A DNA stretch of 64,000 nt from Chamaea fasciata (Eukaryota > Chordata > Aves > Passeriformes > Sylviidae), in NCBI GenBank assembly GCA_029207755.1, contig JARCOQ010000010.1:310001-374000 (forward strand). Direction: 5' to 3'. A program made the position numbers and the translations under genes. Positions 5,774 through 63,910 of this stretch are shown here, piece after piece; the first letter of the stretch is position 1, and each line of letters starts with the position of its first letter. The notes beneath the pieces were generated by a model. It was not told the DNA's origin, did not search any database, and saw only the letters and a list, made by a program, of their open reading frames with translations.

Positions 5774-15655
<9,882 letters not shown>

Positions 15656-29460: not shown

Positions 29461-29478
29461 AGCAGCTATTCCAAAAGC

Positions 29479-31671: not shown

Positions 31672-31689
31672 ACATTGGGTACCAAAATC
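31672..31689 (-). other. Degenerate retroviral primer-binding site
   Basis: Directly after the 5' LTR, the minus strand reads TTTTGGTACCCAATGTGGGG. The related element at 52866 reads TGGCGCCCAAGTGTGGGGC at the same place. Both resemble the tRNA-Lys type TGGCGCCCAACGTGGGGC, with CpG decay in this copy. Confidence 0.55.
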
Positions 31690-31925
31690 TGTCTTGGTTT
31701 GGGAAGACAGGTATCTGCCAGGTAATAAAAAAAAAAAAAAACAACAACAACTGCAGTTTCCTTTAGGATGGAGAGTGTAAACCCCCCCTCAACCCCTTTT
31801 TTTTTTCTTTTTTCAATTATAAATTTACAATCAGAGGCTCTTAGGCAAAGATTTGGGAAATAGGAATAGTAGTTCTTTACTAGTGTGTATTACAAAGCAA
31901 ACAAACACAAAAAAAAAAAAAAACC
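31690..31925 (-). repeat. Truncated 5' LTR of the provirus
   Basis: It matches the 3' LTR from the CCAAGACA end through the A-rich tract, then stops at about 31925, where unrelated sequence begins. About 570 bp of LTR, including the TG end, is missing, so the target-site duplication cannot be tested. The break falls in an A-run, a plausible site for deletion or recombination. Confidence 0.8.
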
Positions 31926-33734: not shown

Positions 33735-33978
33735 GGGTTTGTCACAGAAATCCTCGAGTTTCTTACCAAAAATCCTCGAGTTTGTCCTAGAAATTCTCGA
33801 GTTTGTCATAGAGATCCTGGAGTTTGTCATAAAAATCCTCGAGTTTGTCATAGAAATCTTGGAGTTCGCAATAGAAATCCTCGAGTTTGTCACTGCAATC
33901 CTCAACTTTGTCACAGAAACCCTCGAGTTTTGTACAAAACCCCTCGAGTTTGTCATTGAATTCCTTGAGTTGGTCCCT
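33735..33978. repeat. 21-bp minisatellite
   Basis: About eleven to twelve copies of a 21-bp unit near TCATAGAAATCCTCGAGTTTG, with 1-4 mismatches per copy. Because 21 is a multiple of three, every frame repeats a 7-residue motif and stays open on both strands. These open frames should not be read as genes. Most units carry an internal CTCGAG. Confidence 0.92.
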
Positions 33979-42900: not shown

Positions 42901-45900
42901 GGACTCCATGGGAGAAGGTAGAACATTTGAACAAAGAGCTGCAAGTGTGTCTGCAGCCCTTGGAGGGGGAAAAGCGTCCTTGGGAGAAAGTGGAATGGTC
43001 ATTTTGGCAGTCTGCCTTCAGAAAACCCACGCAAATGCATTTTGGAGAAAATGGACAATGAATCTGGCCTTGCACTCCAGTCAAACCAGCCTTTGGCTTT
43101 GAGCCATCCAGTTTGAGGAGTGGACATCAGAACAAACCCATGGCAGAGCCCTGCATGTGGCTGACAGCATCTTGCTAAGGGCTTGCATTTGAAATGGGAT
43201 CTGGGGCTAATCTCTGCCAGCCACTTTTCTTTCTGACACCAACTCCTTTGTTGTCTCAGATCTCCACAGGCTCTTCTGTTGAACCTGCAGGAGCAGCAGT
43301 GTCACCTGAAGGCACTAGTGCTGGCCAAGTTGTGCAGTGGAAGCCGGGCAGTTCGTTCATCTCCAGCACTGACACGGCTTCTGCTCAGCAACAGGAGATG
43401 GAGGATGATGAGGATGAGTCCCTGGAGCTCCTGAGTATGTCTTGTGTCTTTCTTCTCTGAGGGACAGTGTATTGTGTGCACGTGTCAGCACAGCTGGACC
43501 CAATGATCCTCCTCACTTTGGTGTCCCAGGAGCATTTAGGGCTCCCCACAGGAGAGGCTGTGCTCCAAGGCAGCAAGAGAGTGCTCTGGGTGTTCCCGCT
43601 GCCTCTGAGGGCAGCTTGGACGTGCCTGGGGTTTGCCTGAGCTTCCCCATCTGCTAAAGGCAGAAGCAGGGGTTGTCCTTGCATCAGCAGAAGGCTGTGA
43701 GCTAGCAAATGATCTGGGCAAGTCCTGTGTGCTAGTGGCCAAACTGGATAGAATAGTCAGCTTCCTAAATTCTCCTTAGACTCCTGACTTCTCATCTGCC
43801 ATCCGAGCAAAAAAAACCTTCACAGAAATTGATTGGTTTTGGCATTTTGTCTTTTGGTTGTGGTTTTAGTTTGGGGTTTTTTCCGGATTTTTTTTGGGTA
43901 GAGATTTTTTCTCCATCTTGAAGGAGCTCTTCTGCCCCATGTGTCTTAGTGGCGTCATTTTGATGACTGTTCTTATTTACCACTACTACATCTGCTGGTT
44001 TTTTAATGAGAATATATATATTTGTCAGTGAGGACTCTTTGGAAAGAACATCAGGTGACAGCAGAAACAGAGAGCAAGAGCTGGTTTTTTTGTGCCCCCA
44101 ACGAAAAAAACCAGATCTTTTTATTACAATCTGTATTTAATAACCTAGTTTGGTTCCTAGAAACATACATCCAAGAGACATAGGCCTGGGGCATGATCAG
44201 ATAAAAGTGCACTGTAGGCATTTCTCAGGAGTGAGCCTCGAGCCCCTCTGCTGTATATTCCTCAGATCCATGACACTTTTTCCTACCTGATTCCCAGTCA
44301 TTCCCATGACTGTTAGAATGCTACCCACTGGCCCAAGCCCTGCTCAGATCAGTCTCTAGGAAAACACATCAAGCCCTTTGTGATTCTACAGCACAAGTCA
44401 TTGAAGCTGCTTCTTGCCCAGAGCAGCTGCCGGTCCTGTGCCCTCAGATAAGACCTGGTGGGGCTGAGAAGAGAGCCCAGCTGACTCTCTGTCTCCCGTC
44501 ACCTGTTGGCACAAAAGGGCACTGATGTGCACCTGGGTGTGTCTGCTCTCCAAGCCAATCCTGCCGTGTCCTCAGTGGGGGCACCAGCTTGGAAGGGGCT
44601 GGGTGTGGCCGTGCCTTCTTGCCATTGCTTGTCAGTGCTTGTCTTGGTTTAGGAAGACAGGTATTTGCTAGGTAAAATTACAATCAGAGGCTCTTTGGCA
44701 AAGATTTGGGAAATAGGAATAGCAGTTTTTTACTAGTATGTAATACAAAGCAAACAAACACAAAAAAAAACTCCCCCTTCACTAAACAACTACAGCATTA
44801 ATGACAAACGACAACAGTACCAAGAACCTTGAGGGCTTTGTTTCACAAAACCCAGGGCAGTTTGGTTTCGGTGTCCCTGCAGGATCCTCAGAGCACCAAG
44901 CTGGAACAGTGGAAAAGTTCCGGGCTGGTAGCTGGGATGGCAGGGTGTCCCGGCAGGCAGGGGCAGGATGTCTCGGCAGCGCAGGGAGTGCTGGGTCACG
45001 CTGCAGCAAGAGGAGCAGCGCCGAAGAAGCTCGAAGGCGAGGCAGAATAGCGGCGGCCCAGCTTCTGCTCGGCGGGCTTTGCGGCGGCTGAGATCCTCGA
45101 GGAGCGGCCGACACGCGTCTCCCGAACGCCGGAAGCAGAAAAGCACGCAGCTGCCTCAAGCTGTGTCTTTTACCTGCGTTATCTCCTCCTTCTACCTTTT
45201 GTCCATCTCTTTGTTTCAGCCAAGCACTCTCAAGTATCCAACACCCGGTCCCCTTGGCAACCCGTGGGGAAAAAATTCCCAAGAGAAAGAAGGAACAAAC
45301 CCAACCCCCAACATTGCTGGTGCCTGGGCTTTGGCAGCTTTGTGGCGGTGGCTGCCCTGGCCCTGAGGGCTGGTGTGAGCGCCGAGGCTGGAGCCTTCCT
45401 TAGCTGGGAGAGTCCCGCTGCCTGCCGGCCGCTGCAGCGCGGAGCTGCCTCGAGGCAGCAGCCCCTGCTCTGGGCCGGCTCCTGCGTGGCCTGGGCTGGG
45501 CTCACAGAGGGTCAGCATCTCCTCTGGGCAGCTGTCCGTGTCCCGCCGGCACCTGAGGAGCACTGCTGTCCCTGCTGCCCTTGCCCGCTGCGGGAAGCTG
45601 GGCACGTGTGCGGGGCTGAGAGGGCGAGTGCAATGGCAGGGACTGATCCCTGCTGTCAGGGGGAGGAGAAGCAGTGTGGTTCTTCACGTGGGCCACGGGC
45701 AAGGGCGTCTTCCAGCTCAGCCTGCTCATCAAGGGTGAGGGTCCTGCTGCTGAAGGCCCCTTGGGATTGGTTAGAGCATGAGCTGCTTGGGTTTACAAAG
45801 GGAAAGGCATTCTTTTGGCAAACTGCTGCAAGGTGGGGAAGATGCCCTCCTCTCCTGGGAATGCATCTCCCTGTGCTTTGTTTTCTGCCAAGGCATCTCT

Positions 45901-48900
45901 TCAAAGGGCTGTAGAAATCAGTGCTGGCCTGCTTGTACTGCAGAGCTGCCTGTCTTGTTGCAATTGTTGTTGTTGTTGTTGTTACCCAGCTGGCCACAAA
46001 GGACTCAGAAGCCCAGACTGTAGAGCCCCAGCAGGGCTGCCTTTTGTATCTCTTGGATAGTGGGATCTCTGCTTTCAAGTGAACATCTTGCATTTTGTTT
46101 CCCTCAGGGCAAATGGCGAGCATGGAAAATCCCCGAAGGAAATACATTGAAGAGGAAATTGTTGGCAGAGGGTGACTCCAACCACAGTTACTTGTACGCA
46201 ATCATGGGGCAACGATTTGCTGCTGGAATATCTGTCAAGGGTGAAGTCAGGCAAGATGCAAACATATTCAGACACTGGGGTTAGTCTGCCCCATCTCTCA
46301 GTACCAGCCAGAATTTGGAAGTGTGGTCAGAAGGAATTGTCAAAGACACTTGGATTTCATTGCCAGAAACAGCAAGCACCCCTTTTTGTAGCAGGGAGAT
46401 AACTGAAGGAACATTTCTTCCCAAGAGTTTGCTGAAGGAAATAGTGTGATCAGGATAAAAACTGCCCAGTTTAGAAACTGAAATCCAAGATGAAAGAATC
46501 ACCTGGCCTTTGGAGCTGAGCCACTAAACCCCAATGCTTCAGAAAAAGGCTCAGTGCCCATGCACTGGAGAGGAAAATGCATCATCTACCTTCTGGCAGA
46601 GCCCTCCTGCATGCTGCAGGTTGGAGGCATTTCCAGCAGACATCTCCTGTCTGAGCTGGCTTTCACTCCAACGTCTAAATGGCTTCTCCTTTCTTTGCTG
46701 CTGTTTTGTTTCTAGGGCTTTTGGAGAGGTTTGCAGAGCCATCGACACTGCCACAGGAAGACAGGTAAATGTCAAGAGCCCCTGCAGATTCTGCTGCTCT
46801 CCAGGGCTTTCCTCTCTCGTGTCAGCTGTGGCTGCAGCTGTGGCTAGAGCTGTGCTGCAAAGGCACAAGAAGCACAGACTGGTGCCAGCCTGCCAGCTGC
46901 ATTTGGGACAGTCTTTGTCCTGCTCAGCTGCCAGAAGGAAGGCAAGGAGGGCAGCAGTTCCTTTCAGAGAAGGACGCTCTCCCTGGCTCTCAATTGCTCC
47001 AACAAAGGTGGTGCCTTGGAGCATCTCACTGCTCTCTGGGGCTACGGCTTCAGAGTCCTGAATTCCCATTTCTGGCTGCCAGCAAATACATCTGAATGTT
47101 CCTGGCAGTTCCTTAGCCACCTGCAGTGCTGCACTTGGGAACTGCACGTAGGGAGAGATCTGCAAGGCGTCCCTAAAAGCCCCAAGCCCTGCCTATAGCC
47201 CGAGATGTATCCACAGAGTACCAAGGCACGCATTTCTTCCTCTGAAGTACGGACAGAGAAACAGAGAGTGTGCTCAGAGCTTTGGGGGGTGAGAGTTGAC
47301 ACACCATTTTTAACAAGTGGACAAGGCAAATTGTGGTCAGTGGCCACGTGTCCTGGAACTGGCCCACAAAGGAGCAGAGAAATGAGCTGTAGGAATGTCA
47401 GTTCCTAATTACTCCTTTGTCTAATCGCAAGGCACTTTGGCAGAGCTCACCTGTGTCATTGCAAAATCACTCGCTCCATGTGTGTTGTGGTCTCATTCCA
47501 CCAGCTTCTAAAGTTACTGATTTTCTGTGTCATTCTAGGTGGCCATCAAGAAAATCAATCTTCAAGGACTGAATAGGAATCAACAAGCGCTTAATGAAAT
47601 CATGGTCATGAAGAAGAATAAGAGTCCCCACGTTGTGGATTATTTAGACAGGTGAGTGGTCATGGTCTCTTCCCATGAAGGTTTGTTTACATAGTAAAGG
47701 CATGTGAGGTTAAAACCCCACTTTGGACACCGGCAGAAAATAGAGCTGTTAATAATCAGTTAATTATTATTTCTCTACTCATCTCCAATGGATGGGAAGA
47801 GAGTGTATTTTGCCTGCATGTGTCTTCCCTGGCTTTCAAACACTGAGTTGGAACATTGGCCAAAAACCTGAATCAACCCTCCCATACTAAGTCAATACCT
47901 TGTAAGCTCACTGCCTCCATGTTGTCTCAGGATTGATTTTTTCAAGTTTCTTCAACGCTGATGAAGCATGCTAGAGAGGATTTCCCTTGGATTGTTGCCC
48001 CTCTTTTCCAGGGCTGGCCATGCCAGGAACACTAGGTGCTCCTTTCCAGAAATACCATGCGGGACAGGTTTTTCATCTTGGCTGATACTAAAGTGTACGT
48101 TTTGCTTGCTGGCCATCTAAAATATCTCCTTTTTCACAGATGTGCTGTTCTCCTTGAGACTGCACAGACTGTAAACAATGCACAGCCGGAAGGGCGTGTC
48201 TATTCCTTGAATTCTGTCCTTGTCACAAAGGGACCCGGAAACAAGAATCAAGCAAAGAAACCAATGTATGCATGTTCATCTGCATGGCCTTGTTCCCTTC
48301 TTTCAGCTACCTTGTGCTCGACGAACTCTGGCTGGTGATGGAGTACATGGATGGAGGCTCTCTGGATGATGTCATCGCTGAGGTTCGCATATGTGAACAC
48401 CACATTGCAACCATCAGTCGAGAGGTGAGGGATCCCATCTGTGCTTTCCGAGGGCTTGGGCAGTATTGTCTGGGAAAGGGGCTCAGGACAGGAGTGATTC
48501 CGTGAGCCAGGCTTTGTTTCTGTGTGGCTGATATGCTCTGGGCAAGCAAGAGCATCTCAAGCGAACTGCCTGCCAGTGCCCCTGCACTCACTGGACTCTG
48601 TTCTTGTCCTCTTCTCTCCTGCTGTTGCATTCTCACTCTGGCTCTTGTATTTGCTCTTCTCCATCTTGCCTCTCTAAACTTTGGCCTGTCTGCACTGCAT
48701 TCCTTGCCTGTAAAAGCAAAGGTGGGGGTGGCACTGTTTGAAAGGAGCAGCAAAGAAGAAAGACTCATTTCTCTGAGTCCTCAGCTGGAAAGGTTAGCAG
48801 TGCAGCCAGAATGCTCTGTACTTCTGAGCACATCCACTGCAGCAGCAGTCGTCCTGGCTGGTTTGCAGGGCAGAGTCTACACCAGCAGTTGCTGTTGCTC

Positions 48901-51443
48901 TTTGACAAGCTGACATGCCTTTCTTTAGAAAGGTGCTGCTCTGCCTGTGTTGGAGCAGCGAGCTCTTGCCCTCAATGGCACTGTCTTCTGCCATTACTCC
49001 TCATTCCCCTGGAGAGGGAATCTTGGAGAGCTCTTTCCTTTGTTGTGTGATGAAATCACATCACTGATTTTTGCCCTCCCGTTTCTGGTTTCTCTCTCAG
49101 TGCCTGCAAGGACTGGATTTTCTCCATTCCAACAACGTGATACACCGAGATGTGAAGAGCCTCAACATTCTCCTCAAAACGGATGGCTCTGTCAAGCTGG
49201 GTCAGTATATTCTTGGGCAGGTGCAGCGTTCCAGGGATATGTGGGCTGTGGGGCTGCTTTTGAGTGAGTGCCAGCCCCCCCCAAAATGGTGCTGGTGGCA
49301 GTGCAGGGAGCCTGTTGTGAGCTGACCACGTGGTTGCAACGTGCACAGACCAATGGCAAGGATCGAGCAGTGCACAGTGGCATTGCTCTGTGTGTGTCCC
49401 TTCCAGAGGGAGGGGGCTACAAGTCTAAAGCTTCAGGGGAAGAAAAGACACTGCTGGAGGCCGTGTAAAAAATGTGGGGATTTTTGAAGCAGCCAATGCC
49501 ATATTTCCTTGGCTAAAGTCCTGAAGAAACAGAGCAGGGACAGTTGTCCAGGAGATTCAGCAGCACATTCTCCAACTTAAACTGGGCAATTCTTTTCCTT
49601 GATTTCCTAATTGCACAGGATTCAAATAAAAACGGTCTTTTGCTTTCTCCCCAGCTGATTCTGGCCTCTCTGCTCAACTCACCTATGAGCAGAGTAGACG
49701 GAGATCGGTGACCGGGACTGCTTGGTGGATGGCGCCTGAAATTGCAAAAGCTGAGTCCTATGGCCCCAAAGCAGACATATGGTCTTTTGGAATTGTGGGC
49801 ATTGAAATGGTGGAAGGAGAACCTCCTTATGGGAATAAAGGTCCTCTCGTGGTAAGGTGTAAATACTCTCTGATCCCGCTGTCTTTCTCCCCCATCCCAC
49901 GTTCTGTGTGCCATTGGACAAAATGCCATTGCCATCTGCTGGAACTACTTCCACCATGGTCCCTTTCTGAAAATGTCCCTGCAGCACATCAGCATCTGCT
50001 GGGGTTTTGGTTGCATCCATGAGGGAACTCAAGCCTTAGCCCAGGCAGACAATCTCCCTTCTCAGGCAACATTTGGCTTTGGCTTAGAAGTCGTTCCAGC
50101 TCTTTTGGCTGTGTAGATGGCCCTACTAACAGGAAACAAGCATCTTAGAGCTGCTGTTATCTTTCCTGAAATGAAGGAAAGAAACCCAAACCCAACAAAG
50201 TTTCTAAAGCAGTGGTTTGGAGAGAAGTGTACCCCCATTCTTCTCACAGGGAAACTTGCCTTAACTGAGGGATTTCCTTTCTTTACTTTTAATTAGCATT
50301 GTTTTCAAGAACCAAGGAAAAAGCTTGATGACTTTTATAGCAGCTGTGCTTAAGGGACCAACAAGTGCTGCAGAGATGCTTTTCATGTAATACTCCTTGG
50401 AAATACTAGAGTGAGTTAGCAGAGCAAAGTCCCTCTTCCAACTAGCCTGTCAAGCTGGTCAGGTGAATCCTCAGAGAAGCAAAGGTGCTTTTGCTGATGT
50501 AGTTTCCACTAAGGAGGTCAGTCAATGAAATCAGCTGCCAGGGCAAGATCTGCTGGATGCTGGAAAAGCTGTGACTGCATCAGGCTTTGGGTTTTTTGTT
50601 GGTCCAGGAAAGTCATCTCTGCCTCTGTGCCACGGCAGAAACAGCCCCTGCAGAGTGCAGCTGAAACAATGGGATCTGGGAGAGCAGTTCCAGATGTGAA
50701 AGAAGCAGCTGAGAGACTCGTCTTTCCTTTTTCTCCAGGCTCGATTCCTGATAGCCACCAAAGGGATCCCAGAGCTGCGGCAGCCCAAGCTCCTCTCCCC
50801 TTTGCTGCGTGACTTCCTGAGCTGCTGCCTGCAGAGAGACGAGGAGCGGCGCTGGTCTGCCAAGGAGCTGCTGCAGGTAAAATGCCAAGGGGCTGCAGGG
50901 GAAACAGTGTCCCAGGGACGGGCTCCTCCTGCACTGAACTGCCAGGCATCAGATGAGCCTCGTCCTCCTCGCCTCCACTCTTGGTGCTGTTCAAATGAGA
51001 ACAGCCAGGAATCCTAGACTGGGCTGGGCTGGCAGGGACCTGTAAGGGTCATCTGGTCCAAGTGCCCTGCAATGAGCAGGGGCGTCTTTAAAGAGATCAG
51101 GATGCTCAGACCTGAGATATTTCCAGGCCTGGGGCACTTAGCAGCTCTTGCAGCAAGCTGTGCCACTGTTGTCCCACTGTTGCTCCTTAGACCTACTCTG
51201 ACTCAATCCCCTTTTCATTGAAAAAAAGATTACCCTGCCTTTGGGGCTCTTAGCTTGGAAAGTAATCGTTCATTCTTGGCTTTTTTGTTTTCCTTTGTGC
51301 AGCATCCATTTGTAACATCAGCCAAGCCTACATCCAGCCTGGTGCCACTCATCCTTACATTTAAGAAGTGGAAGGAGTTGACAGGAATGGACCAGTCACT
51401 TAAAAACATTTTCCTCCATCACCAGCATTGTGGAGGATTGTAG
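39935..51443 (+). CDS. PAK-like STE20 kinase with N-terminal membrane anchor and coiled coil (left copy)
   Basis: Fifteen phase-compatible exons: 39935-40013, 40394-40431, 40861-40983, 41971-42111, 42172-42324, 42750-42917 (end uncertain), 43260-43434, 46108-46171, 46716-46764, 47539-47651, 48307-48424, 49101-49200, 49655-49851, 50739-50876, 51303-51443; about 598 residues. An in-frame TAG at 39887 lies upstream of the ATG. Residues ~3-26 form a hydrophobic anchor followed by HLSRVFRG. About 128-178 is a Glu/Arg/Lys-rich coiled coil. About 270-292 is acidic ([10 protein letters not shown]). The kinase domain, numbered from M46113, has GRGAFGEV (18-25), VAIKK (Lys40), HRD (128-130), DSG in place of DFG (148-150), Ser164 at the PAK activation-loop Thr position, APE (173-175) and SAKELLQHPF. 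No CRIB domain is seen. The kinase part is certain. Linkage to the upstream exons rests on the phase match giving [17 protein letters not shown], which parallels the residues before the PAK kinase domain. An LTR sits in the intron before the kinase exons. Confidence 0.82.
42112..42171 (+). other. 60-bp in-frame micro-intron with a lost AG acceptor
   Basis: The donor GTAAGC at 42112 is good, but the expected acceptor reads TTTACGG instead of TTTACAG. The 60 bases contain no in-frame stop, and retention adds 20 residues without frameshift between two coiled-coil-side exons. Either the intron is now exonic or a non-AG site is used. Confidence 0.55.
43435..44639 (+). other. Intron sequence before the LTR insertion
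   Basis: The first part of the intron between the acidic exon and the first kinase exon. Nothing else is recognised. The short frames here are shadows. The donor GTATGT at 43435 leaves phase 1, which the exon at 46108 completes. Confidence 0.5.
44640..45313 (-). mobile_element. Solo LTR, same family as the provirus
   Basis: It matches the 25712-26520 LTR with TG...CA ends in minus orientation. It is shorter because the A/T-rich tract and part of the GC-rich segment are deleted. Flanks read GTGCT on the left and TTGCT on the right, consistent with a 5-bp target duplication carrying one change. It lies in an intron of the kinase gene, antisense to it. Confidence 0.85.
45960..45983. repeat. (TTG)n microsatellite
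   Basis: About seven TTG triplets in the intron just upstream of the first kinase exon. Confidence 0.85.
46113..51443 (+). CDS. Kinase-domain exons of the left PAK-like copy
   Basis: Eight exons (46113-46171 onward) give 304 codons with no stop, all with GT donors and AG acceptors. This is the segment duplicated in inverted orientation at 58145-63910. The Mg-binding Asn (KSLN), Lys40 and catalytic Asp130 are present. Phe149 of DFG is Ser, which is rare in active kinases and may weaken ATP/Mg handling, although the Asp is kept. The C-terminal tail is longer than in the right copy. If the upstream exons are not used, this would be a free cytosolic kinase domain starting at either M46113 or M46122. 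Confidence 0.9.
51017..51130 (-). mobile_element. CR1-like LINE scrap in the last intron
   Basis: GGCAGGGACCTGTAAGGGTC followed by ATCTGGTCCAAGTGCCCTGC resembles the 3'-terminal region of avian CR1 LINEs. The same scrap lies in the mirror intron at about 58437-58550, so it predates the inverted duplication. Confidence 0.5.
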
Positions 51444-51525
51444 AGTAGGATTGTAGCTAGGATTGTAGAGTAGGATTTTAGCCTAGGACTGTAGGGTAGT
51501 ATTTTGGCCTAGGATTGTAAATAAA
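51437..51525 (+). promoter_or_regulatory. 3' UTR short repeats and polyadenylation signal
   Basis: After the stop, a 15-20-bp motif near AGGATTGTAGAGT repeats four to five times and is followed by AATAAA at 51520-51525. The mirror copy keeps both, with AATAAA on the minus strand at 58068-58063. Confidence 0.7.
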
Positions 51526-52131
51526 GTTTCTGAAACCTCAAGTCATTTTGAAGATTGTCCTCCTTCTGAGCCTGTGAGAATGCTCAACATTTCCTTCTGA
51601 ACTGTCCATTTTTGCTTAGAGGTGGAAAGTGACATTGATGCCTTCTTTGGTACGGTTTGAAGGGGGAGTAGGCTCTTCTTTCGTCATGCTCTCCGGACCG
51701 CAGTGCCTTTGGAATATGGCCCAGGGGCTGGGTTTTACCCAGCTGTGGCACTTGTGTTTGAGGCAGAAAGGGCAGTGGCATTTGCAGGCAGAACCAAAGG
51801 ACGAGGCCAGCTGCAGGCAGGGACAGCTTGTCAGGTCACATCTGCAGGAGCCGGGGCCTCACGCAGCTCTGGGAGGAAGCGCCTGCAGTCCTGGAGTTGT
51901 GCACTGAGCCAGAGCAAAGGGATGAAATGCAGAGTGTTCTGCAGAAATATTCCGGGGCACCAGGCCAGCCTGCTTTGAGCTCTCTGGCACACAGCAAGCA
52001 CTGTGCAATGCAGCCCTGAGCTGCTGGAAGAGGGGTGTTAGAAAGGAGCCAGCTCTTAGATGAAATTAAATGGGTACAAAGTCCTCAAAGCCAAAGAGGA
52101 CTTTTTCTTAGGAAGGATTCACCTGAGCTGG

Positions 52132-53172
52132 TGTTGGGGGTTAGGTTTGTTCCTTTTCTCTCTTAAGATTTTTTTCCCCACAAGTTGCCAAGGAGACCAA
52201 GTGTTGGATACTTGAGAGTACTTAACCGAAACAGTGGTGGGCAAAGGTGGAAGGGGGAGATAACGCAGGTAAAAAACAAAGCTTGAGGCAGCAGCGGGCT
52301 TTTCTTTTTTCCGGCCTTCGGGGAGAGAGAGAACGGCTGTTGCTGGCTAGATGAGTTTCACTGTGTGGCCAAAGGGATCCAGTCCTAAGAAATCTACTAT
52401 CACTGGTTTGGCCTGAATCCTGAGTTTTCCCTGCCACCCGCGGGAGCTGGTCCAGGCACGGCCTCGCCTTCGGCTTCTTCGGCGCTGCTCCTCTTGCTGC
52501 AGCGTGACCCTGCACCCCCTGCGCTGCCGGGACATCCTGCCCCTGCCTGCCGGGACACTCTGCCATCCCAGCTATCAGCCCGGGACTTTTCCACTGTTTC
52601 AGCTTGGTGCTCTGAGGATCCTGCAGGGACACCGAAACCAAACTGCCCTGGGTTTTGTGAAACAAAGCCCTCAAAGTTCTTAGTCCTGTTGTCGTTTGTC
52701 ATTAATGCTGTAGTTGTTTGGTGGGGGGGGGGGGGGGGGGGTTGTGTTTGTTTGCTTTGTATTACATACTAGTAAAGAACTGCTATTCCTATTTCCCAAA
52801 TCTTTGCCAAAGAGCCTCTGATTGTAATTTTACCTGGAAAATACCTGTCTTCCCAAACCAAGACAGATTTTGGCGCCCAAGTGTGGGGCTTGAGGGCACT
52901 GAGAAAAGAAAAGGGAAGAGAAATAGCAGTTCTTAACTAACCTAGTACTTTCTTTTGTGTGCGTTGGATATAAAAACCTCATTAGGCTGCATCATGTAGT
53001 CTAACTTAGCCTGGTTTGGATGACATGTGGTTGTGGCTGTATTCCTTCCATTTGCAGGCCCTTATCTAAACATGGGCCTAATAACTAAAGCTACTGTGAC
53101 TGTCATTTAGTTTATTTTATAGCTTAATAAGGTGAAGAACTCATAGATTTTTAATTTCCTCTGGAACGCAGG
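52132..53172 (+). mobile_element. ERV 5' LTR plus leader fragment
   Basis: 52132-52865 is a + strand LTR of the same family (TGTTGGGGG...CCAAGACA). A primer-binding site follows at about 52871 (TGGCGCCCAAGTGTGGGG), then about 290 bp of leader that matches the leader of the provirus near 31395-31683 in reverse. The element breaks at 53172 against another LTR. A run of about 20 G lies at 52723-52741 inside the LTR. Confidence 0.85.
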
Positions 53173-53541
53173 TGTTGAAGAACAGTTAGCAGAGCAAGGC
53201 CACGGATAATTAGAGGCCTTATGGCCCGATACCAAGTGCCAGCAGCCTACGCGCTGCTGAGACAAGCTGTCCTTGGGACAGCAGTAAGCACGGACACAGG
53301 CCAAAGATAAAAGAACTTGTGGTTAATAGAGCGTAGCAGTAAGCACGTATACAAAGTTTTCAGCATGCCAAGAGGAGGAACCTTCTCACGCTTGATATAG
53401 CCAATCAAGTATAGATGAGTAGTGTATGCTAACCAACTATAATTTGACAAGTATGCTGAACGCTTCGGGCAAAAGTATAAGAACGGATGTTATGAGCAAT
53501 AAAGTTGAACAATGCTTTACCAATCATATTGATTGATTGCA
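53173..53541 (+). mobile_element. Second-family LTR
   Basis: It starts TGTTGAAGAACAG and ends TTGATTGCA. A TATA-like AGTATAAGAA lies near 53474 and AATAAAG near 53498, in LTR order on the + strand. At about 369 bp it resembles short alpharetrovirus-like LTRs. It begins exactly where the preceding ERV leader is broken. Confidence 0.6.
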
Positions 53542-53568
53542 TTCTTCCCTCGCCGAAATCCTCCGCAG

Positions 53569-53874
53569 TGCAGCACATCCTGCGTAGGAGATGGTCCTGG
53601 TGTCCCAGAGGGAATTGTGCATGGCTTTGCGGACAGTGGTGCAGATGGAGCCCAGGTCGCTGAGGGCCAGGTTGAGCAGGAAGAAGAACATGGGGCTGTG
53701 CAGGTGGTGGCCACAGGCTACGGCGCTGGTGACCAGGCCGTGGCCCAGGAGGGCAGCCAGGGAGATGCCCAGGAAGAGGCAGAAGTGCAGGAGCTGCAGC
53801 TGCCGCGTGTCTGCCAACGCCAGCGGGAGGAAGTGGCTGATGGAGCTGCTGTTGGACATTTGCTGTGGCTGCAT
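53569..53874 (-). pseudogene. Olfactory receptor fragment (avian family 14 type)
   Basis: About 100 N-terminal residues of a class A olfactory receptor, an odorant-sensing GPCR of seven membrane spans. Present are an N-terminal MSNSSSISHF, TM1 (LLGHGLVTSAV), the PMFFFLLNLALSDLG motif of TM2 and the TM3 start (SYAGCAA). The coding match stops at about 53569, immediately beside an LTR. Five of the seven membrane spans are missing. The TM1 GN motif reads GH. It is a pseudogene fragment, probably brought in or cut by the adjacent LTR. Confidence 0.85.
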
Positions 53875-54047
53875 ATGGGGACATGTTCATGGATAAAGGA
53901 CAGTGACAAGTCAGGACTGGCTGCTTTGAGCCAAACCCGTGCCATTCCCTGTAGCCTGTCCTGCTGGTGTTGGTGTCTTTGGGGCGGACCCTGACTGCCG
54001 ACACAACAGCAACGCATTCGCTTAAGAGCTGGACTAGGTCAGTGCAA

Positions 54048-54126
54048 AAGATGGCGGCCAGGGCTGAGGGAGCCACACACAAGATGGCGGCCAGGGCTGG
54101 AGAACCACACACAAGATGGCGGCTGG
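54048..54126 (+). promoter_or_regulatory. Three tandem YY1-like motifs
   Basis: AAGATGGCGGC (54048, AAAGATGGCGGCC in context) recurs at about 54080 and 54113 in a tandem repeat of roughly 32 bp with ACCACACAC between copies. It equals the classical YY1 consensus AAnATGGCGGC. Binding is inferred only. Confidence 0.5.
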
Positions 54127-54403
54127 GGCCGGGCTGCCAGGGCGGCTGATCTCACTAGGAGGCGCAGCCTCAGCCCTCTGGCTGCCATCCTGTGTGGGGC
54201 AGGCTGAGCCCCCCTGCAGTGTCTGTTGGAATGGACATTAACGGACACCGGGGAAAAGGACACGGTCTGGCACCTTTGCTCTGTGCACACAAACATAGAC
54301 CAGCCAGTTTGGAACGCCAACTGGCAGTACTTTGATGTCAAGGCAATTCAAAGAGGTGAAAATAGAACGAAACTCCAGGCATTGAACATTTTAAAATAAA
54401 AAC

Positions 54404-54404
54404 T

Positions 54405-54444
<40 letters not shown>
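54404..54444. repeat. Poly-T run of about 41
   Basis: Uninterrupted T homopolymer. No retroposed body with a polyadenylation signal is visible beside it on the minus strand. The exact length may be unreliable in the assembly. Confidence 0.9.
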
Positions 54445-54445
<1 letters not shown>

Positions 54446-54879
54446 AAAGAGGGCTAAAAGCACTTCTTGTACACATGGACTCCAATTAGCACCAAGCAGC
54501 ATCACAAGTGGTTTCGTCCAGGCAGGAGTCACAGTGAGTGTGAGGTGATGAAAACGGAGATGGGATCTGCTTGAGGCAGATGGTGCAGCGGCTGCTCACC
54601 TGCGACATGTATCCCTCAGGGTACCCATTTCTTTAGAACACTATGAAGACTAGAGGGAATTGAAAGTCCACTGCAGTTCAGGTTGTTCTTCACGAGATTG
54701 TTCAAGTCGAGCACAGCCATTCTGTTCAGCAGACACACGGGCAGGGGCTTCTTGGAGCGCCGCTCTGGCACCCATTCTTTGGAGGAGGGGATTGCAGGAA
54801 AGAAGAAAAGAAGCTCATCAACTACTGAAGAGGAAGAGTCACTGACAGGAAGCAGTGGGTTAAGAAATGTGAGGGAAAA

Positions 54880-55745
54880 AAAGGCAGAAAACATGAGGTG
54901 ACAAGTGTGAGAAATGGGAGTGGAAAAAGGAGGGAAGTGTGAGGGAGGAAAAGGGAAGGAAACCTGAGTGGGAAAGGCTGAGAAAACTGAGGGGAAAATG
55001 GTGAAGACGTGAGTGAAAATAGGAGAGGAAGGTGAGAGGAGGAAAAGGCAGGACATATGACGGGAAAATTCTAAGAAACATGATCAGGGAAGGCTGAAAA
55101 ACATAGAGGAAAAAATGGAGGGAAATGTGAGGGGAAGAGAGTGAGAAAATTACTGGCAGAGAGAGAGAAACAGGCAGCAAATGTGAGGGGAACATTGTGA
55201 GAATCCTGAGGGGAAAAGAGGGAGAAACCGAAGGGCAGAAAAAGGCACAAAACATTAGGGGGAAAAAAAGCGTGGGAAGTTGGATGGGAAAAGTGACAGA
55301 AAACAGGAGTGAAAAAAGGGCACAAAATGCTAGAGGAAAAGTATAAGCAACATGATGGGGAAAGAATGATAAACGTGAGGGGAAAAGTGGGAGAAATGTA
55401 AGAGGGAAAGCCTGGGAAACATGAGGGCAAAAGTGAGAAACATGAGGAGACAACTTGGAGAAAAATGACTGAGGAAAGGAGAAAAGCATGAGGGGAGAAA
55501 AGGGCAGGGTAAGTGAGGGGAAAATTGTGAGAATCATGCGAGAACAAAAAAGCAGGAAAAAGCGGGAAGTTGGGGAAGTGTGAGAGGCAAAGTGTGAGGA
55601 AAGGGAGCTGAAAAGGGTGGGGAAAAGAAGTAAAACTTGGGAGGCAAACATGACAGGAAAACTGTGAGACTCGAGAGGGGGAAGGAGTGGAAATGTGAGA
55701 GGGAAAAGAACAGGAAAGGTGAAGGGAGAAAAGGAGCGAAGGCAG
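54880..55745. repeat. Purine-rich minisatellite
   Basis: About 870 bp of imperfect 25-35-bp units built from GTGAGGGGAAAA, GAGAAACATGAGG and similar blocks, almost all purine on the + strand. It generates long open frames of 263 and 393 codons on the minus strand (Phe/Ser/Pro/Leu-rich), which are composition artefacts. Mirror-like homopurine tracts can adopt triplex DNA (inference). Confidence 0.9.
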
Positions 55746-57314
55746 GATTGGCATGACAGCTGAAATGATTCCTAACACATTCCCCCATGCATTTGCCCAT
55801 TTATTGCAGTAGCCCAGGGCTTCTCTGTATGTCCGTCTCCCCCTGTGCCTTGATTCCTGTTCGGAAGCAGCAGAAGTGCAGGATGTGCCCACCAGCAGGA
55901 GCTGCTCCAGGCTGGGAAGGGGCCAGGTGGTGCTGATTTCCAGAGGCTTCTGTGTCCCAGGTGAGGCCAAGGCAGGAGTGGGTTGAAAGGTGCTGCTGCT
56001 GCTCCTCTGTGCCAGAGAGCCCTGGCTGGGCAGGGCACGGCGCCCACTGCACTGCGGGCTCTTTCTCCTGCCACAGCTGGGCACACCTGGCAACAAATCA
56101 TGACGACTTGTGGGGAAACCAAGGGCTTTGTGGAGGCTGCATTGCTCTGCACACACCCGGGCCACCTGCAGCACAGAGCTTTGGCCCCCAGAAATGTAAA
56201 CCCGAGGGGAACAGCTGGAAAAGGTTTCATTTTCACCTTTCAATAGAAGCAACTAAAATCAAAGTTACCAAGAAGGGCTCCGATCCCTGGTGCCAGCTCG
56301 GTGTGAGAAAGGAGGCATGACTTTATTTCAGTGCTGGGTGCGTGGGGAATCACTTTCCTAACACGTGCTCAGCCAGAAATCCCACCTACTCATTTGTAAC
56401 CATGGAAATAAGACCTACTCATTACTTTGCTGAAACTCACAGGCTAAACATTCCCTCAAATTAGTTGACATATTTAAACCACTTCTCAGAAGTTACTGAC
56501 AGGAGAGTAGGGCTCTCTTTAGAGTCCCGGGTGGTCATTTGGGGAACATCCCATTCCTGCAATTCTCCTCTGATGCTCAAGAGCCTCCTACAACCACTCT
56601 TTTCCCCTTGAATGCATTCCAGCTACATTCTTAGGAAGACTACCCTATTCTCAAGGCTAAGGTAGCCACTTGCACACATCAATCACTGCACTGGGGGAAT
56701 AGAGGGCTCAACACTCTGTTAATGCAAAGGGAATTCACAATTTGTTACAGTTCAACATTTTCTCAAAACCTGCCTTCTCTGGGAATTGCTCACAAGCATG
56801 TCCTCAATGCACCTTGAAAATGTTTTTGCTGACTGAAGCCAGAGTGTGTCTTTCCTTCAGCAATTCAGAAGAAAAACACAAACTGCCTACTGAAACCCTT
56901 CTGCTCCCTTCCAAATCAGTTCACTGCTCAAGCACGAGCCACAGGCTCATGCCCGATTCCCTCAGTGAGATAGGAGGTAATATTTTGCTGCAGCTGCAGG
57001 GTTATTAGAAGAAGGAACGAAAGCTGTTGGTTCTTGGGGTTGTTATTTAGGGTTTGGATTGGTTCTAGTTGATTTGTTGGGTGTTGCTGTGAGGTGGGAG
57101 AGGGGCCAGCGTGAAGACCAAACCAAAAGGGAAGTAGGAGAAGAGGGGAGGGAACAGAAAAGGAGGCGGTGGGGACAGAATACAAGTTTCCTATTTCCCG
57201 GCCAAAGGGAAAGGGGACACGGTTCGCCCTGGGCTGGGAAAGGCAATAAAAAAGCAGCATTTTCTGTGTGTGTGTTGTGTGTGTGTTTGGCTCTTGGGAG
57301 AGGGAGATACACAC
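55746..57314. other. Spacer segment between the inverted arms
   Basis: No recognised gene. The open frames at 55772-56320 on both strands lack motifs. A TG-rich microsatellite lies at about 57265-57290, next to the right-arm boundary. Confidence 0.45.
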
Positions 57315-58062
57315 CCAGCTCAGGGGAATCCTTCCTAAGAAACAGTTCTCTTTGGCTTTGAGGACTTTTTCCCCATTTAATTTCATCTAAGAGCTGGCTC
57401 CTTTCTAACACCCCTCTCCCAGCAGCTCAGGGCTGCATTGCACAGTGCTTGCTGTGTGCCAGAGAGCACAAAGCAGGCTGGCCTGGCGCCCCGGAATATT
57501 TCTGCAGAACACTCTGCATTTCACCCCTTTGCTCTGGCTCAGTGCACAACTCCAGCACTGCAGGCGCTTCCTCCCAGAGCCGTGTGAGGCCCCGGCTCCT
57601 GCAGATGTGACCTGACAAGCTGTCCCTGCCTGCCGCTGGCCTCGCTTCCCCCGGCAGAAGCGCCGTGCCTGAAGGAGGCTGCCCTGTGCCGGAGCCTGCG
57701 GAGCAGCCCGGCTCCCTCCCCTGTGCCCAGAGCGCTGCACACACTGCTCACCTTGGCCAGGAGTAGGAGGGCAGCCGGCACAAGGGTGGCAATCCTCAGC
57801 CAGGCCTGCAGCCCTCGGCTGTGGTTTGCCTTTCTCTGCTCCTGTGCACGCTCCGGACGGCTGATGCCACCGGTCTGTGCTGTGCCCAGCACGGCCACGC
57901 TTCCCCTCGGGAGAGCCTTCCCCACTTTCCAACTGTACCAAAGAAGCCATCAATGTCACTCTCCACCTCTAAGAAAAAACTGACACTTCAGAAGAAAATG
58001 TTGAGCTTTCTCAGAGGCTCAGAAGGAGGAGAATCTTTGAAACGAGTTGAGGTTTCACAAAC

Positions 58063-58068
58063 TTTATT
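58063..58068 (-). promoter_or_regulatory. Polyadenylation signal of the right kinase copy
   Basis: AATAAA on the minus strand about 77 bp after the stop, at the mirror position of the left copy's signal. Confidence 0.65.
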
Positions 58069-58144
58069 TCCAATCCTATGCTACAATCCTACTCCACTGT
58101 CCTAGCTGCAATCCTACTCTGCAGTCCTATTCTACAATCCTTCT

Positions 58145-61100
58145 CTATAGTGGTGTTGGAGAAAACAGTTGTCTGATTCCTGTCTCCTCCTTCCACTCTT
58201 TCACTGAAGTGATCAGTGGCACCAGGCTGGACACAGGCTTCGCTGATGTTATAAATGGATGCTGCACAAAGAAAAAAAGAAACCAAGAATGAGCCATTAC
58301 TTTGCAAGCTAAGAGCCTCAAAGGCAGGGCAATATTTTTCAAAGGAAAAGGAGATTGAATCAGAGTAGGTCTAAGGAGCAACAGTGGGGCCACATTGGCA
58401 CAGCTTGCTGCAAGAGCTGCTAAGTGCCCCAGGCCTGGAAATATCTCAGGTCTGAGCATCCTGATCTCTTTAAAGACGCCCCTGGTCATATTGCAGGGCA
58501 CTTGGAGCAGCTGAGCTTTACAGGCCCCTGCCAGCCCAGCCCAGTCTAGGATTCCTGACTGTTCTCATTTGAACAGCACCAAGAGTGGAGGTGAAGAGGA
58601 GGAGGCTCCCCTGATGCCTGGCCGTTCAGTGCAGGAGGAGCCCGTCCCTGGGACACTGTTTCCCCTGCAGCCCCTTGGCATTTTACCTGCAGCAGCTCCT
58701 TGGCAGACCAGCGCCGCTCCTCGTCTCTCTGCAGGCAGCAGCTCAGGAAGTCACGCAGCAAAGGTGAGCAGAGCTTGGGCTGCTGCAGCTTTGGGATCCC
58801 TTTGGTGGCTTTCAGGAGTCGAGCCTGGAGAAAAAGGAAAAACGAGTTTCTCACCTGCTTCTTTCACGTCTGGAACTGCTCTCCCAGATGCCACGGTTGA
58901 AGCTGCACTCTGCAGTGGCACTTTCTGCTGTGGCACAGAGGCAGAGATGACTTTCCTGGACCAACAAAACACCTATAGCCCAATGCAGCCACTGCTTTTC
59001 CAGCATCCAGCAGATCTTGCCTTGGCAGCTGATTTCATTGACTGACCTTGTTAGTGAAAACAATAGCAGCAAAAGCAGGTTTCCTTCTCTGAGGATTCAC
59101 CTGAGCAGCTTGACAGGCTAGTTGGAAGAGGGACTTTGCTCTACTAACTCACTCTACTATTTCCAAAGATAATTACATGAAAAGCATCTCTGCAGCACTT
59201 GTTGGTCCCTTAAGCACAGCTGCCATCAAACCAAAGGCATCTAGCTTTTTCCTTGGTTCTTGAAAACAATGGGAATTGCAAGCAAAGAAAGGAAATCCCT
59301 CAGTTATTCCTCAGGTAAGGAAACAAGCATTTGGAATCCCATCTTCCACACAGACACATGAAGATGCATGCACAAATGTCTTGGGACGAAAATGCCTCTT
59401 TGGGCACACAGGAAACACCTGCACCTCCGTCTCTCATCAGACTGCAAATTTCAGCTTCCCTTAGGCAGCAAAAGGAAAATTTTGGTGGCCAAAGCAGAAG
59501 AGGGAGAAACACCATCCATGTGGTAGCCCTCTGCTCATTTGGATCCTCAAGTCAATGCATTAATGGTATGGTCATCCTAGAAAGTGCCAGGAAACAAAGG
59601 GGTGGGTTTGGCAGGCTCTCCACATGGCCAGGCTTCATGTTGGTGACATGGAGGTGGCGGCTTGGGTTAGGAAAGAAAGACGGTCACTAAGTGTTTCAGC
59701 AGCACCGCACAAGAAGCACAACAGACTCTGTGGCCTTCACAGCCTCTTGTCAAGGTTTCAGGCAAATTTCCTTGTGAGAAGAACGGGGGTGCACTTCTTC
59801 TCTCCAAACCACTGTTTTCTAAACTTTCTTGGGTTTGGGTTACTTTCCTTCATTTCAGGAAAGATAACACCACTTCTAAGATGCTTGTTTGCTGCTATTA
59901 GGGACGTCTACAAAGCCAAAAGAGCTGGAACGACTTCTAAGCCAAAGCCCAATGTTGCCTGAGAAGGGAGATTGTTTGCCTGGGCTAAGGCTTGAGTTCC
60001 CCCACGGATGCAACCAAAACCCCAGCAGATGCTGATGTGCTGCAGGGACATTTTCAGAAAGGGACTGTGGTGGAAGTAGTTCCAGCGGATGGCAATGGCA
60101 TTTTGTCCAATGGCACACAGAACGTGGGATGGGGGAGAAAGACAGCGGGATCAGAGAGTATTTACACCTTACCATGGCAGAATTTTCCTCCCAGTCAGGA
60201 GCTTCTCCTTCCACCATTTCAATGACCACGATTCCCAAAGACCATATGTCCACTTTGGGGCCATAGGGTTCACCGTTCACTTCAGGTGCCATCCACTGAA
60301 GAGTCCCGACCACCGATCTCCGTCTACTCTGCTCAGGGGTGAGTTGAGCAGAGAGGCCAAAATCAGCTGGGGAGAAAGCAAACGACCGTTTTTATTTGAA
60401 TCCTGTGCAATTAGGAAAGCACGCAAAAGAATTTCCCGGTAGAAGTTTGAGAATGTGCTCTTGAATCTCCTGGACAACTGTCCCTGCTCTGTTTCCTCAG
60501 GACTTTAGCCAAGGAAATATGGTGCTGGCTGCTTCAAAAATCCCCACATTTTTTACACGGCCTCCAGAAGGGGCTTTTCAAACTTTAGACATGTAGCTCC
60601 CTCCCTCTGGAAGGGACACGCACAGAGCAATGCCACTGTGCACTGCTCGATCCTTGCCATAGGTCTGTGCACGTTGCACCCGCGTGGTCAGCTCACAACA
60701 GGCTCCCTGCACTGCCACCAGCACCATTTTGGGGGGGCTGGCACTCACTCAAAAGCAGCCCCACAGCCCACATATCCCTGGAACGCTGCACCTGCCCAAG
60801 AATATACTGACCCAGCTTGACAGAGCCATCCGTTTTGAGGAGAATGTTGAGGCTCTTCAAATCTCTGTGCATCACGTGGTTGGAATGGAGAAAATGCAGT
60901 CCTTGCAGGCACTGAGAGAGAAACCAGAAACAGGAGGGCAAAAATCAGTGATGTGATTTCATCACACAACAAAGGAAAGAGCTCTCCAAGATTCCCTCTC
61001 CAGGGGAATGAGGAGTAATGGCAGAAGACAGTGCCATTGAGGGCAAGAGCTCGCTGCTCCAACACAGGCAGAGCAGCACCTTTCTAAAGAAAGGCATGTC

Positions 61101-63910
61101 AGCTTGCCAAAGAGCAACAGCAACTGCTGGTGTAGACTCTGCCCTGCAAACCAGCCAGGATGACTGCTGCTGCAGTGGATGTGCTCAGAAGTACAGAGCA
61201 TTCTGGCTGCACTGCTAACCTTTCCAGCTGAGGACTCAGAGAAATGAGTCTCTCTTTCTTCTTTGCTGTTCCTTTCAAATGCTACCACCACCACCACCTT
61301 TGCTTTTACAGGCAAGGAATGCAGTGCAGACAGGCCAAAGTTTAGAGAGGCAAGATGGAGAAGAGCAAATACAAGAGCCAGAGTGAGAATGCAACAGCAG
61401 GAGAGAAGAGGACAGGAACAGAGTCCAGTGAGTGCAGGGGCACTGGCAGGCAGTTCACCTGAGAGGCTCTTGCTTGCCCAGAGCATATCAGCCACACAGA
61501 AACAAAGCCTGGCTCACGGAATCACTCCTGTTCTGAGCCCCTTTCCCAGACAATCCTGCCCAAGCTCTGGGAAGCACAGCTGGGATCCCCGACTGACCTC
61601 CCGACTGATGATGGCAATCTCATCTTCTCTCAGGCGAGTCTTTTGGATTGTGTCATAAAGACTGCCTCCATCCATGTACTCCATCACCAGCCACAGTTCT
61701 TCATGCACAAGGTAGCTGAAAGAAGGAAACAAGGCCATGCAGATGAACATGCATTCGTTGGTTCCTTTGCTTGATTCTTGTTTTTGGGTCCCTTTGTGAC
61801 AAGGACAGAATTAAAAGAATTAAAGACATTCCCTCCAGGCCGTGGGTTGTTTGCAGTCTGTGCAGTCTCAAGGAGAACAGCACATCTGTGAAAAAGGAGA
61901 TGTCTCTGATGGCCAGCAAACAAAAAGTGCAGTTTAGTAACAACCAAGATGAAAAACCTGTCACCGTGATATTTCTGGAAATAAGCACCTAGTGTTCCTG
62001 GTATGGACAGCCATGGAAAAGAGGGGCAACAATCCAAGGGAAATCCTCTCTAGCATGCTTCATCAGCATTGAAGAAACCTTAAAAAATCCATCCTGAGAC
62101 AACATGGAGGCAGTGAGCTTACAAGGTACTGACTTCTTGTGGTAGAGTTGATGCAGGTTTTTGAACAATTTTTCAACTATGTGTTGGAAAGGCAGGGATG
62201 ACTCATGGAGACAAACTGCACTCTCTTCCCATCCATTGGAGATGAGTAGAGAAATAATAATGAAGCAATAATTACCAGCTTTCTTTTCTGCCAGTGTCCA
62301 AAGTGGGGTTTTAACCTTGCATGCTTTTACTATGTAAACAAACCTTCATGGGATGAGACCACGACCACTCACCCGTCTAAATAATGGACGAGATGGGGAC
62401 TCATATTCCTCTTCATGACCGTGATTTCAGTAACAATATCCTCCATCTCGCTCGGTCCCCGAAGATAGATTTTCTTGATGGCCACCTAGAATGAGATTGA
62501 AAATCAGTAACTTTAGAAGCTGGTGGAATGAGACCAAAACACACATGGGGAGAGAGATTTTGCAATGACACCACCAAGCCGTGCCAAAGTGCCTTGTAAT
62601 TAGACAAAGGAGTAATTAGGAACTGACATTCCTACAGCTCATTTCTCTGCTCCTTTGGGGGCCAGTTCCAGGACACGTGGCCACTGACCACATTTTGCCT
62701 TGTCCACTTGTTAAAAATGGTGTGTCAATTATCATCCCCAAAGCTCTGAGCACACTCTCTGTCTGTCTGTACTTCAGAGGAAGAAATGCGTGCCTTGGTA
62801 CTCTGTGGATACATCTTGGGCTATAGGCAGAGCTTGGGGCTTTTAGGGACGCCTTGCAGATCTCTCCCTACGTGCAGTTCCCAAGTGCAGCACTGCAGGT
62901 GGCTAAGGAACTGCCAGGAACATTCAGATGTATTTGTTGGCAGCCAGAAATGGGAATTCAGGACTCTGAAGCCGTAGCCCCAGAGAGCAGTGAGATGCTC
63001 CAAGGCACCACCTTTGTTGGAGCAATTAAGAGCCAGGGAGAGCGTCCTTCTCTGAAAGGAACCGCTGCCCTCCTTGCCTTCCTTCTGGCAGCTGAGCAGG
63101 ACAAAGACTGTCCCAAATGCAGCTGGCAGGCTGGCACCAGTCTGTGCTTCTTGTGCCTTTGCAGCACAGCTCTAGCCACAGCTGCAGCCACAGCTGACAC
63201 GAGAGAGGAAAGCCCTGGAGAGCAGCAGAATCTGCAGGGGCTCTTGACATTTACCTGTCTTCCTGTGGCAGTGTCGATGGCTCTGCAAACCTCTCCAAAA
63301 GCCCTAGAAACAAAACAGCAGCAAAGAAAGGAGAAGCCATTTAGACCTTGGAGTGAAAGCCAGCCCAGACAGGAGATGTCTGCTGGAAATGCCTCCAACC
63401 TGCAGCATGCAGGAGGGCTCTGCCAGAAGGCAGATGATGCATTTTCCTCTCCAGTGCATGGGCACTGGGCCTGTTTCTGAAGCATTGGGGTTTAGTGCCT
63501 CAGCTCAAAAGGCCAGGTGATTCTTTCATCTTGGATTTCAGTTTCTAAACTGGGCGGTTTTTGTCCTCAGCACAGACTATTTCCTTCAGCAAACTCTTGG
63601 GAAGAAATGCTCCTGAGAAGTGTTATCTGACTGCTATGATAGGGGGTAGGTTGCTGTTTCTGGTAATGAAATCCAAGTGCCTTTGATAATGCCTTCTTAC
63701 CACACAAATTCTGGCTGGTACTGAGAGATGGGGCAGACTAACCCCAGTGTCTGAATATGTTTGCAGTTTGCCTGACTTCACACTTGATAGATATTCCAGC
63801 AGCAAATCGCCTGCCCCATGATTGTGTAGAAGCAACTGTGGTTGGACTCACCCTCTGCCAACAATTTCCTTTTCAGTGTATTTCCTCCGGGGATTTTCTG
63901 TGCTCACCAT
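58145..63910 (-). CDS. PAK-like STE20 kinase domain (right copy)
   Basis: Eight minus-strand exons: 63910-63852, 63303-63255, 62485-62373, 61715-61598, 60911-60812, 60366-60173, 58824-58687, 58261-58145; 295 codons without a stop, all GT/AG. Motifs numbered from M63910: GRGAFGEV, Lys40, HRDLK (128-132), an intact DFG (148-150), Ser164 at the activation-loop site, MAPE and SAKELLQHPF. All catalytic residues are present, so this copy is predicted active. It lacks one codon in exon 6 relative to the left copy and has a shorter C-terminus. The first exon here also follows an AG acceptor 5 bases before the ATG, so upstream exons for an anchor and coiled coil probably lie beyond 64000. The closest known family is the group I PAKs, without any CRIB domain in view. 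Confidence 0.9.
58437..58550 (+). mobile_element. CR1-like LINE scrap (mirror copy)
   Basis: Reverse-complement match of the scrap at 51017-51130, in the homologous last intron of the right kinase copy. Confidence 0.5.

Follow-up and report, generated by a model that had tools for sequence, protein, structure and literature searches.

Short divergent exon segments in an inverted pair of PAK3-like kinase genes of the songbird Chamaea fasciata

How can two neighboring copies of one kinase gene be similar in their introns and in some of their exons, and yet differ strongly in short pieces of their coding sequence? The question is raised by a stretch of 64,000 nucleotides of the Chamaea fasciata genome (GenBank assembly GCA_029207755.1, contig JARCOQ010000010.1, positions 310,001 to 374,000 of the forward strand), referred to here as the window, which carries, in opposite orientations, two members of the songbird PAK3-like (PAK3L) kinase family. 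An initial annotation of this DNA had described hyperdivergence confined to the exons. According to our analysis, the excess divergence is real but is concentrated in short segments of exons 3, 4, 6, and 8, while other parts of the two copies carry significant runs of identity.

The inverted arms lie at 46023-51700 (arm A) and 64000-57878 (arm B), with identities of 91.7, 88.1, and 95.8% in successive pieces (46023-50264, 50262-51676, and 51802-52134, against 64000-57311). Each arm encodes an intact PAK3L kinase domain with an open frame, and these are the two PAK3L copies found in the window. The domain is of the group I PAK type, since its best PDB matches are PAK3 (E = 2e-106) and PAK1 (E = 3e-105) and Pfam assigns it to Pkinase. 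In copy A, an ATG at 46113, before the glycine loop, opens 304 amino acids, and an AATAAA signal is found at 51520; copy B spans 295 amino acids from the ATG before its glycine loop, with AATAAA at 58068. The nearest relatives of both copies are passerine PAK 3-like proteins and, among the best 120 matches listed, all named sources are passerine except that of the pufferfish protein P0112, several names in the list being truncated. The closest relative, P0121, is also from Chamaea fasciata and is 90% identical to copy A over 70% of its length. Copy A has DSG in place of the DFG motif, which copy B retains. The relatives carry DFG in 135 of 151 cases and DSG in 7 of 151, and they retain the Lys in 150/151 and the Glu in 151/151. 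The change in copy A is probably recent, since P0121 keeps DFG, and judging by this residue copy A may have little or no kinase activity. As a side observation, the 7 relatives with DSG indicate that this core change may recur in the family.

Differences between the copies were counted on a MAFFT alignment, where exons 1 to 8 (exon 8 being counted over 51303-51420) differ at 6/59, 0/49, 28/113, 29/118, 5/100, 34/194, 7/138, and 25/107 bases. The pooled exons (134/878) exceed the introns and 5′ flank (286/4483) with P = 2e-16, so that the full alignment does not make the introns as divergent as the exons. The hand counts of the initial annotation for exon 3 (28 of 113 bases, with 17 of 19 changed codons nonsynonymous), exon 4 (about 29 of 118), and the catalytic-loop exon 5 (5 of 100) were reproduced. 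The activation/P+1 exon 6, given there as about 20% different, is indeed raised, but slightly less so (17.5% of the aligned bases, with one 3-base gap), and the divergence of flanking intron, put there at roughly 5 to 8% and low overall, reaches 11.2% (73/654) in the intron that separates exon 3 from exon 4. Compared with 150 bp of flank on each side, the excess is clear in exon 3 (P = 2e-4), exon 4 (P = 3e-5), and exon 6 (P = 9e-6) and weak in exons 5 and 8 (P = 0.03 and 0.05), whereas exons 1, 2, and 7 show no excess over such flanks.

A maximal-scoring-segment scan, whose 99.9% level from 1000 permutations corresponds to a score of 14.9, replaced the picture of exon-wide hyperdivergence with that of four short segments differing at 34 to 58%, one each in exons 3, 4, 6, and 8 (Table 1). 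The fifth-best block is intronic and remains below the threshold (score 12.5). Outside the five best blocks, the exons differ at 60/719 bases and the introns at 279/4473 (P = 0.04). The excess in exons that had been described earlier thus stands, and it extends to exon 8, but its spread over whole exons does not stand. With PAK1 numbering anchored on K40 = K299, we take the segments to be the start of helix C, helix D with its loop, the helix G region, and the C-terminal tail; an AlphaFold model of the relative P0004 made with 29 relatives was too poor to be used (mean predicted local distance difference test score, 57.8). The three kinase-domain segments fall on sites that are hypervariable in 69 relatives, A and B being left out (mean entropy, 1.49 versus 0.91 bits; P = 2e-5).

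Table 1. Features of the two PAK3L copies in the window, with partner positions in arm B where given
Feature	Position	Strand	Basis or remarks
Copy A, kinase part	46108..51443	+	Open frame, splice sites; Pkinase E 2.8e-68
Copy A, exons 1 to 8	46108-46171, 46716-46764, 47539-47651, 48307-48424, 49101-49200, 49655-49851, 50739-50876, 51303-51443	+	
Copy B, kinase part	58145..63910	-	Open frame; Pkinase E 8.6e-71 (Pfam)
Copy B, exons 1 to 8	63910-63852, 63303-63255, 62485-62373, 61715-61598, 60911-60812, 60366-60173, 58824-58687, 58261-58145	-	
DFG motif (DSG in copy A, DFG in copy B)	49655..49663	+	Read from sequence
Divergent segment, exon 3	47564..47594 (partner 62460-62430)	+	18/31, score 28.9; PAK1 about 304-314
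Divergent segment, exon 4	48359..48411 (partner 61663-61611)	+	24/53, score 31.2; PAK1 about 351-368
Divergent segment, exon 6	49828..49849 (partner 60196-60175)	+	12/22, score 18.4; PAK1 about 463-470
Divergent segment, exon 8, C-terminal	51350..51433 (partner 58214-58142)	+	25/73, score 21.4; gaps, alignment unsure
Identity run, 283 bases	46672..46956 (partner 63347-63063)		Covers exon 2; global permutation P < 1e-4
Identity runs, 174 and 177 bases	48905-49080, 49152-49331		Around and in exon 5; global P 1e-4 each
Identity run, 141 bases	50798..50940		Second part of exon 7; global P 0.0027
Four predicted upstream exons of copy A	40861-40983, 41971-42324, 42750-42917, 43260-43434	+	Splice sites, open frame, relatives' matches

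The replacement rate (dN) and the silent rate (dS) between A and B were estimated by codon maximum likelihood, and the intron rates for exons 3, 4, 6, and 8 were set from the alignment at 0.121, 0.121, 0.07, and 0.11. Exon 3 has a dS of 0.28 and a dN of 0.29 (whole-exon ratio, 1.04), exon 4 has 0.47 and 0.27 (0.58), exon 6 has 0.12 and 0.24 (2.04), and exon 8, where the alignment is unsure, has 0.58 and 0.43 (0.74); exons 1, 2, 5, and 7 together have a dS of 0.04 and a dN of 0.06. The dN lies above the intron rate in all four divergent exons (P = 8e-4, 3e-3, 1e-7, and 5e-7 for exons 3, 4, 6, and 8, respectively). However, dS is also above it in exon 4 (P = 0.004), in exon 8 (P = 7e-4), and in exons 3 and 4 combined (0.36 versus 0.121; P = 0.0012); the rise is not clear for exon 6 (P = 0.31) or for exon 3 by itself (P = 0.09). 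At fourfold sites, exons 3 and 4 differ at 5/18, compared with 105/1248 in the near introns (P = 0.015); the fourfold sites of all exons outside the segments are intronlike (8/95 versus 286/4483; P = 0.40). For the three kinase-domain segments pooled, dN is 0.88 and dS 0.54, with a dN/dS ratio (omega) of 1.62 that does not differ from 1 (P = 0.34), while the rest of the kinase domain has a dN of 0.093, a dS of 0.087, and an omega of 1.07. Because silent sites are raised too, the whole-exon dN/dS does not differ from 1, and its simple reading as a ratio above 1 finds no support. The diversifying selection proposed in the initial annotation thus keeps its support from a dN above the intron rate and from the position of the segments on family-hypervariable sites, but not from a dN/dS above 1. 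As far as these rates tell, the segments, in addition to being selected, predate the sequence around them, came in by import, or both.

The identity runs listed in Table 1 take in exon 2, portions of exons 5 and 7, and some intron sequence, and a change-point analysis divides the alignment into blocks differing at 9.3, 1.9, 14.6, 2.5, 8.6, and 21.6%. In 69 relatives, the entropies of exons 1, 2, and 7 are 1.59, 1.57, and 1.15, and those of exons 3, 4, and 6 are 1.15, 0.86, and 0.99. Exons 1, 2, and 7 thus vary in the family as much as exons 3, 4, and 6, yet of the sites in the most variable third, A and B differ at 36 of 53 in exons 3, 4, 6, and 8 but at only 7 of 39 in exons 1, 2, 5, and 7 (P = 2e-6). 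Gene conversion between the arms is indicated because identity runs cover exon 2 and part of exon 7 although these exons are variable in the family. These data suggest that conversion made the similar parts of the two copies similar, a homogenizing process that the earlier description had missed.

We consider it somewhat likelier than its opposite that positive selection on exposed segments, preserved as islands of divergence against conversion between the arms, accounts for these observations. Gene conversion would repeatedly homogenize the locus, and positive selection would repeatedly rewrite the four segments placed above at helices C, D, and G and in the tail; selection would also disfavor conversion across these segments, which would then have diverged for longer and at a higher rate than the adjoining introns. 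The effect would be an altered contact with a partner, regulator, or substrate, while the core would stay kinaselike, at least in copy B. Several points weigh against this explanation. Omega is nowhere significantly above 1 between A and B, in whole exons or in the pooled segments, and silent sites are raised inside the segments (dS versus 0.12; P = 0.007), as import from another gene would also explain. The step in exon 4, from a dS of 0.47 to about 0.1 in the adjoining introns, is steeper than would be expected if the exon were merely shielded from conversion. Exon 5 varies little across the family in any case (entropy, 0.50), and the test for identity runs assumes even divergence, so that local constraint could also produce runs. 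Finally, the nucleotide comparison rests on two sequences, A and B, and the tree of exons 1, 2, 5, and 7 places A with P0121 rather than with B (support, 77), although the grouping of A with B is not rejected (P = 0.83).

Import would mean that one arm received small stretches of exons 3, 4, 6, and 8 from a PAK3L gene that is more distantly related; if the introns of this donor no longer align, such copying would be limited to exons. This would account for silent as well as replacement sites being raised in exons 3 and 4 and in the segments (at the P values given above), for the many segment codons with two or three changes, and for the sharp steps at exon edges. We searched 152 relatives; of these together with A and B, 74 rows passed the filters for coverage and 90% redundancy and were used for the trees. 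None of the 152 qualified as a donor of the divergent segments, this genome's other copies being outside the search, and no relative bears the segments of A or B, except P0121 for A. Exons 3 and 4 of copy B reach at best 68% among 46 proteins, with no close donor, and the segments of B match no relative above 0.45, 0.61, and 0.50, values at or below the family 10th percentiles (0.55, 0.67, and 0.50). Near-identical segments on backgrounds below 0.75 are rare in the family (13/10576, 13/10719, and 0/10432 pairs), and those listed involve odd rows (such as P0137, P0139, and P0145). No DNA of the relatives was found in viral contigs. In the tree of exons 3, 4, and 6, A is joined to P0121 (98) and B sits on a long branch (0.42), while exons 1, 2, 5, and 7 bring A, B, and P0121 together (99); a single clade of the three is not rejected in exons 3+4+6, 3+4, 4, or 6, at low power. 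The trees are weak evidence because they comprise 39 to 143 columns with many open forks, and because in the clade tests, part of which used 70 rows (P0137, P0139, P0141, and P0145 left out), trees better by as much as 21 log units escaped the quick search. The exon-sized conversion from other paralogues that had been put forward as an alternative to selection is unproven, and we deem import possible but unlikely. Relaxed constraint, with one or both copies decaying and their exons drifting, is compatible with the omega of 1.07 outside the segments and with the changed core residue in copy A. It is nevertheless improbable, in that dN exceeds the intron rate, which drift cannot achieve, both frames are open, and the Lys, Glu, and DFG positions are largely kept in the relatives. 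Local hypermutation or an alignment artifact might produce dense multibase changes such as those observed, and the exon 8 tail is aligned with gaps; we regard either as very improbable, since no internal gaps are needed to align the segments of exons 3, 4, and 6, whose flanks are nearly identical, and since these segments have no second copy elsewhere in the window beyond weak matches and fall on family-variable sites.

Within its fast family, the pair is ordinary, because 155 of 1334 matched pairs from the family were as extreme as A and B once every pair was scored on the windows in which it differed most. An apparent uniqueness of the pair, with 0 of 976 pairs of similar background being as different, was dropped because the segments had been chosen from A and B themselves, which makes the comparison circular. 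A and B are thus a normal member pair of a fast-evolving family, instructive rather than new. Protein kinases usually evolve slowly, and the near-saturated replacement in surface segments is odd for a vertebrate kinase family for this reason. The value of the pair lies in carrying its own neutral yardstick, the introns, by which conversion and selection can be separated inside one gene; it also cautions against taking a contrast of exons with introns, in families of this kind, for a dN/dS result.

Copy A first appeared to be a kinase domain without an N terminus, a view corrected by four predicted upstream exons. The N-terminal parts of 96 relatives were compared with the window, and splice sites were read from the DNA. 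Relatives match the predicted exons in order on the plus strand (28 for the second exon, 14 for the third, 12 for the fourth, and 2 for the first), and the four exons join exon 1 in frame and without a stop, adding 275 residues ahead of the ATG. The upstream region is matched by 37 of 152 relatives (E ≤ 1e-3), with 34 to 51% identity in the best 25 of the 37. The matching relatives are gene predictions in their turn, the four exons need not include the 5′ end, and the corresponding region of copy B would fall beyond the window. The first predicted exon resembles the acidic proline-rich linker of the fish PAK P0112 (41%). In the second, E, K, R, Q, and L make up 51% of the residues, and it has no PDB match and no Pfam match at the cutoff; likewise, no Pfam match to CRIB was found in the translations of three upstream exons or in three relatives. 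Because in-frame predicted exons are common to 37 of 152 relatives, copy A is apparently not just a bare kinase domain; if real, these exons would change the picture of PAK3L as such a domain. We tentatively offer the doubtful idea that songbird PAK3L proteins may be re-headed kinases, in which a fast-evolving charged N-terminal region (40861-43434) replaced the CRIB/autoinhibitory head, releasing the kinase surfaces that this head had occupied; these could then vary as short cassettes under an arms race with a partner, while conversion between neighboring copies would keep the rest constant. Separately, a conserved short hydrophobic stretch at 39917-40012 (+), ending at a GTAAGT donor, is matched by the N termini of 15 relatives.

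Elsewhere in the window, a retroviral remnant lies at 25710-31917 (-), with a reverse transcriptase frame at 28657-29460 (RVT_1, E = 1e-25). Its repeats (25.7 to 26.5 and 31.4 to 31.9 kb) recur at 44640-45315 and, inverted, at 52132-53172, that is, on both sides of arm A. Beside the retroviral frame, 28413-28617 (-) matches the N-terminal parts of Agelaius PAK3-like models (e.g., P0129 and P0064), which may therefore be fused to a provirus. IKBKB-like kinase exons at 8047-9194 (+), with a 30-residue match to human IKK beta (E = 2e-12), contain an in-frame TGA at 9162-9164 and perhaps represent a decayed copy. A seemingly shortened olfactory-receptor-like fragment is located between the arms at 53527-53859 (-) (7tm_4, E = 2.6e-6; 7tm_1, E = 2.9e-7), and tandem repeat arrays occupy 1-1503 and 33737-33995.

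The songbird PAK3L expansion and the positive selection on it reportedly go back to Kong et al. (2010), and our finding mainly extends published zebra finch work. Like songbird PAK3L, A and B have a PAK-type kinase domain and a songbird host; the family is clustered, and the window holds two copies. As summarized in a report that cites this work (PMC13060935), 31 genes were counted first and then, on chromosome Z of the zebra finch, 200 copies that form 10 clusters; these lack the 5′ regulatory exons, at least 7 are expressed, and 9 show positive selection. The pair described here comes from another songbird lineage, its divergence is measured against introns and limited to segments, and copy A has an in-frame predicted 5′ extension, unlike the published PAK3L genes, whose N-terminal regulatory exons are stressed as lost. 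In the pertinent passage of a canary paper the PAK3L expansion was not found (PMC4373106), while one on the germline-restricted chromosome of the blue tit includes PAK1, in the section at hand, among avian multicopy genes (PMC10172847). Among the literature matches listed, no title concerned exon-intron divergence or the N-terminal region of PAK3L.

Beyond this family, an excerpt on accelerated segment switch in exons (ASSET) in snake venom genes leaves its mechanism unsettled (PMC2711939). As in ASSET, short exon segments of A and B are radically changed and introns are similar; unlike ASSET, the gene here encodes an intracellular kinase. A switched segment common to otherwise distant genes, as ASSET would entail, is seen at most in rare pairs within the family. 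Islands of divergence are described, in the part considered, for copepod GOT1 paralogues (PMC3728101). Red and green opsin duplicates undergoing conversion show, in the corresponding extract of a review, peaks of exon divergence and homogenized introns, attributed to selection against conversion (PMC3924837). Unlike the opsin case, which was proven by orthologue trees, A and B carry several short peaks per gene, known here from a comparison of paralogues; like the opsins, they combine low intron divergence and exon peaks with significant identity tracts between the copies.

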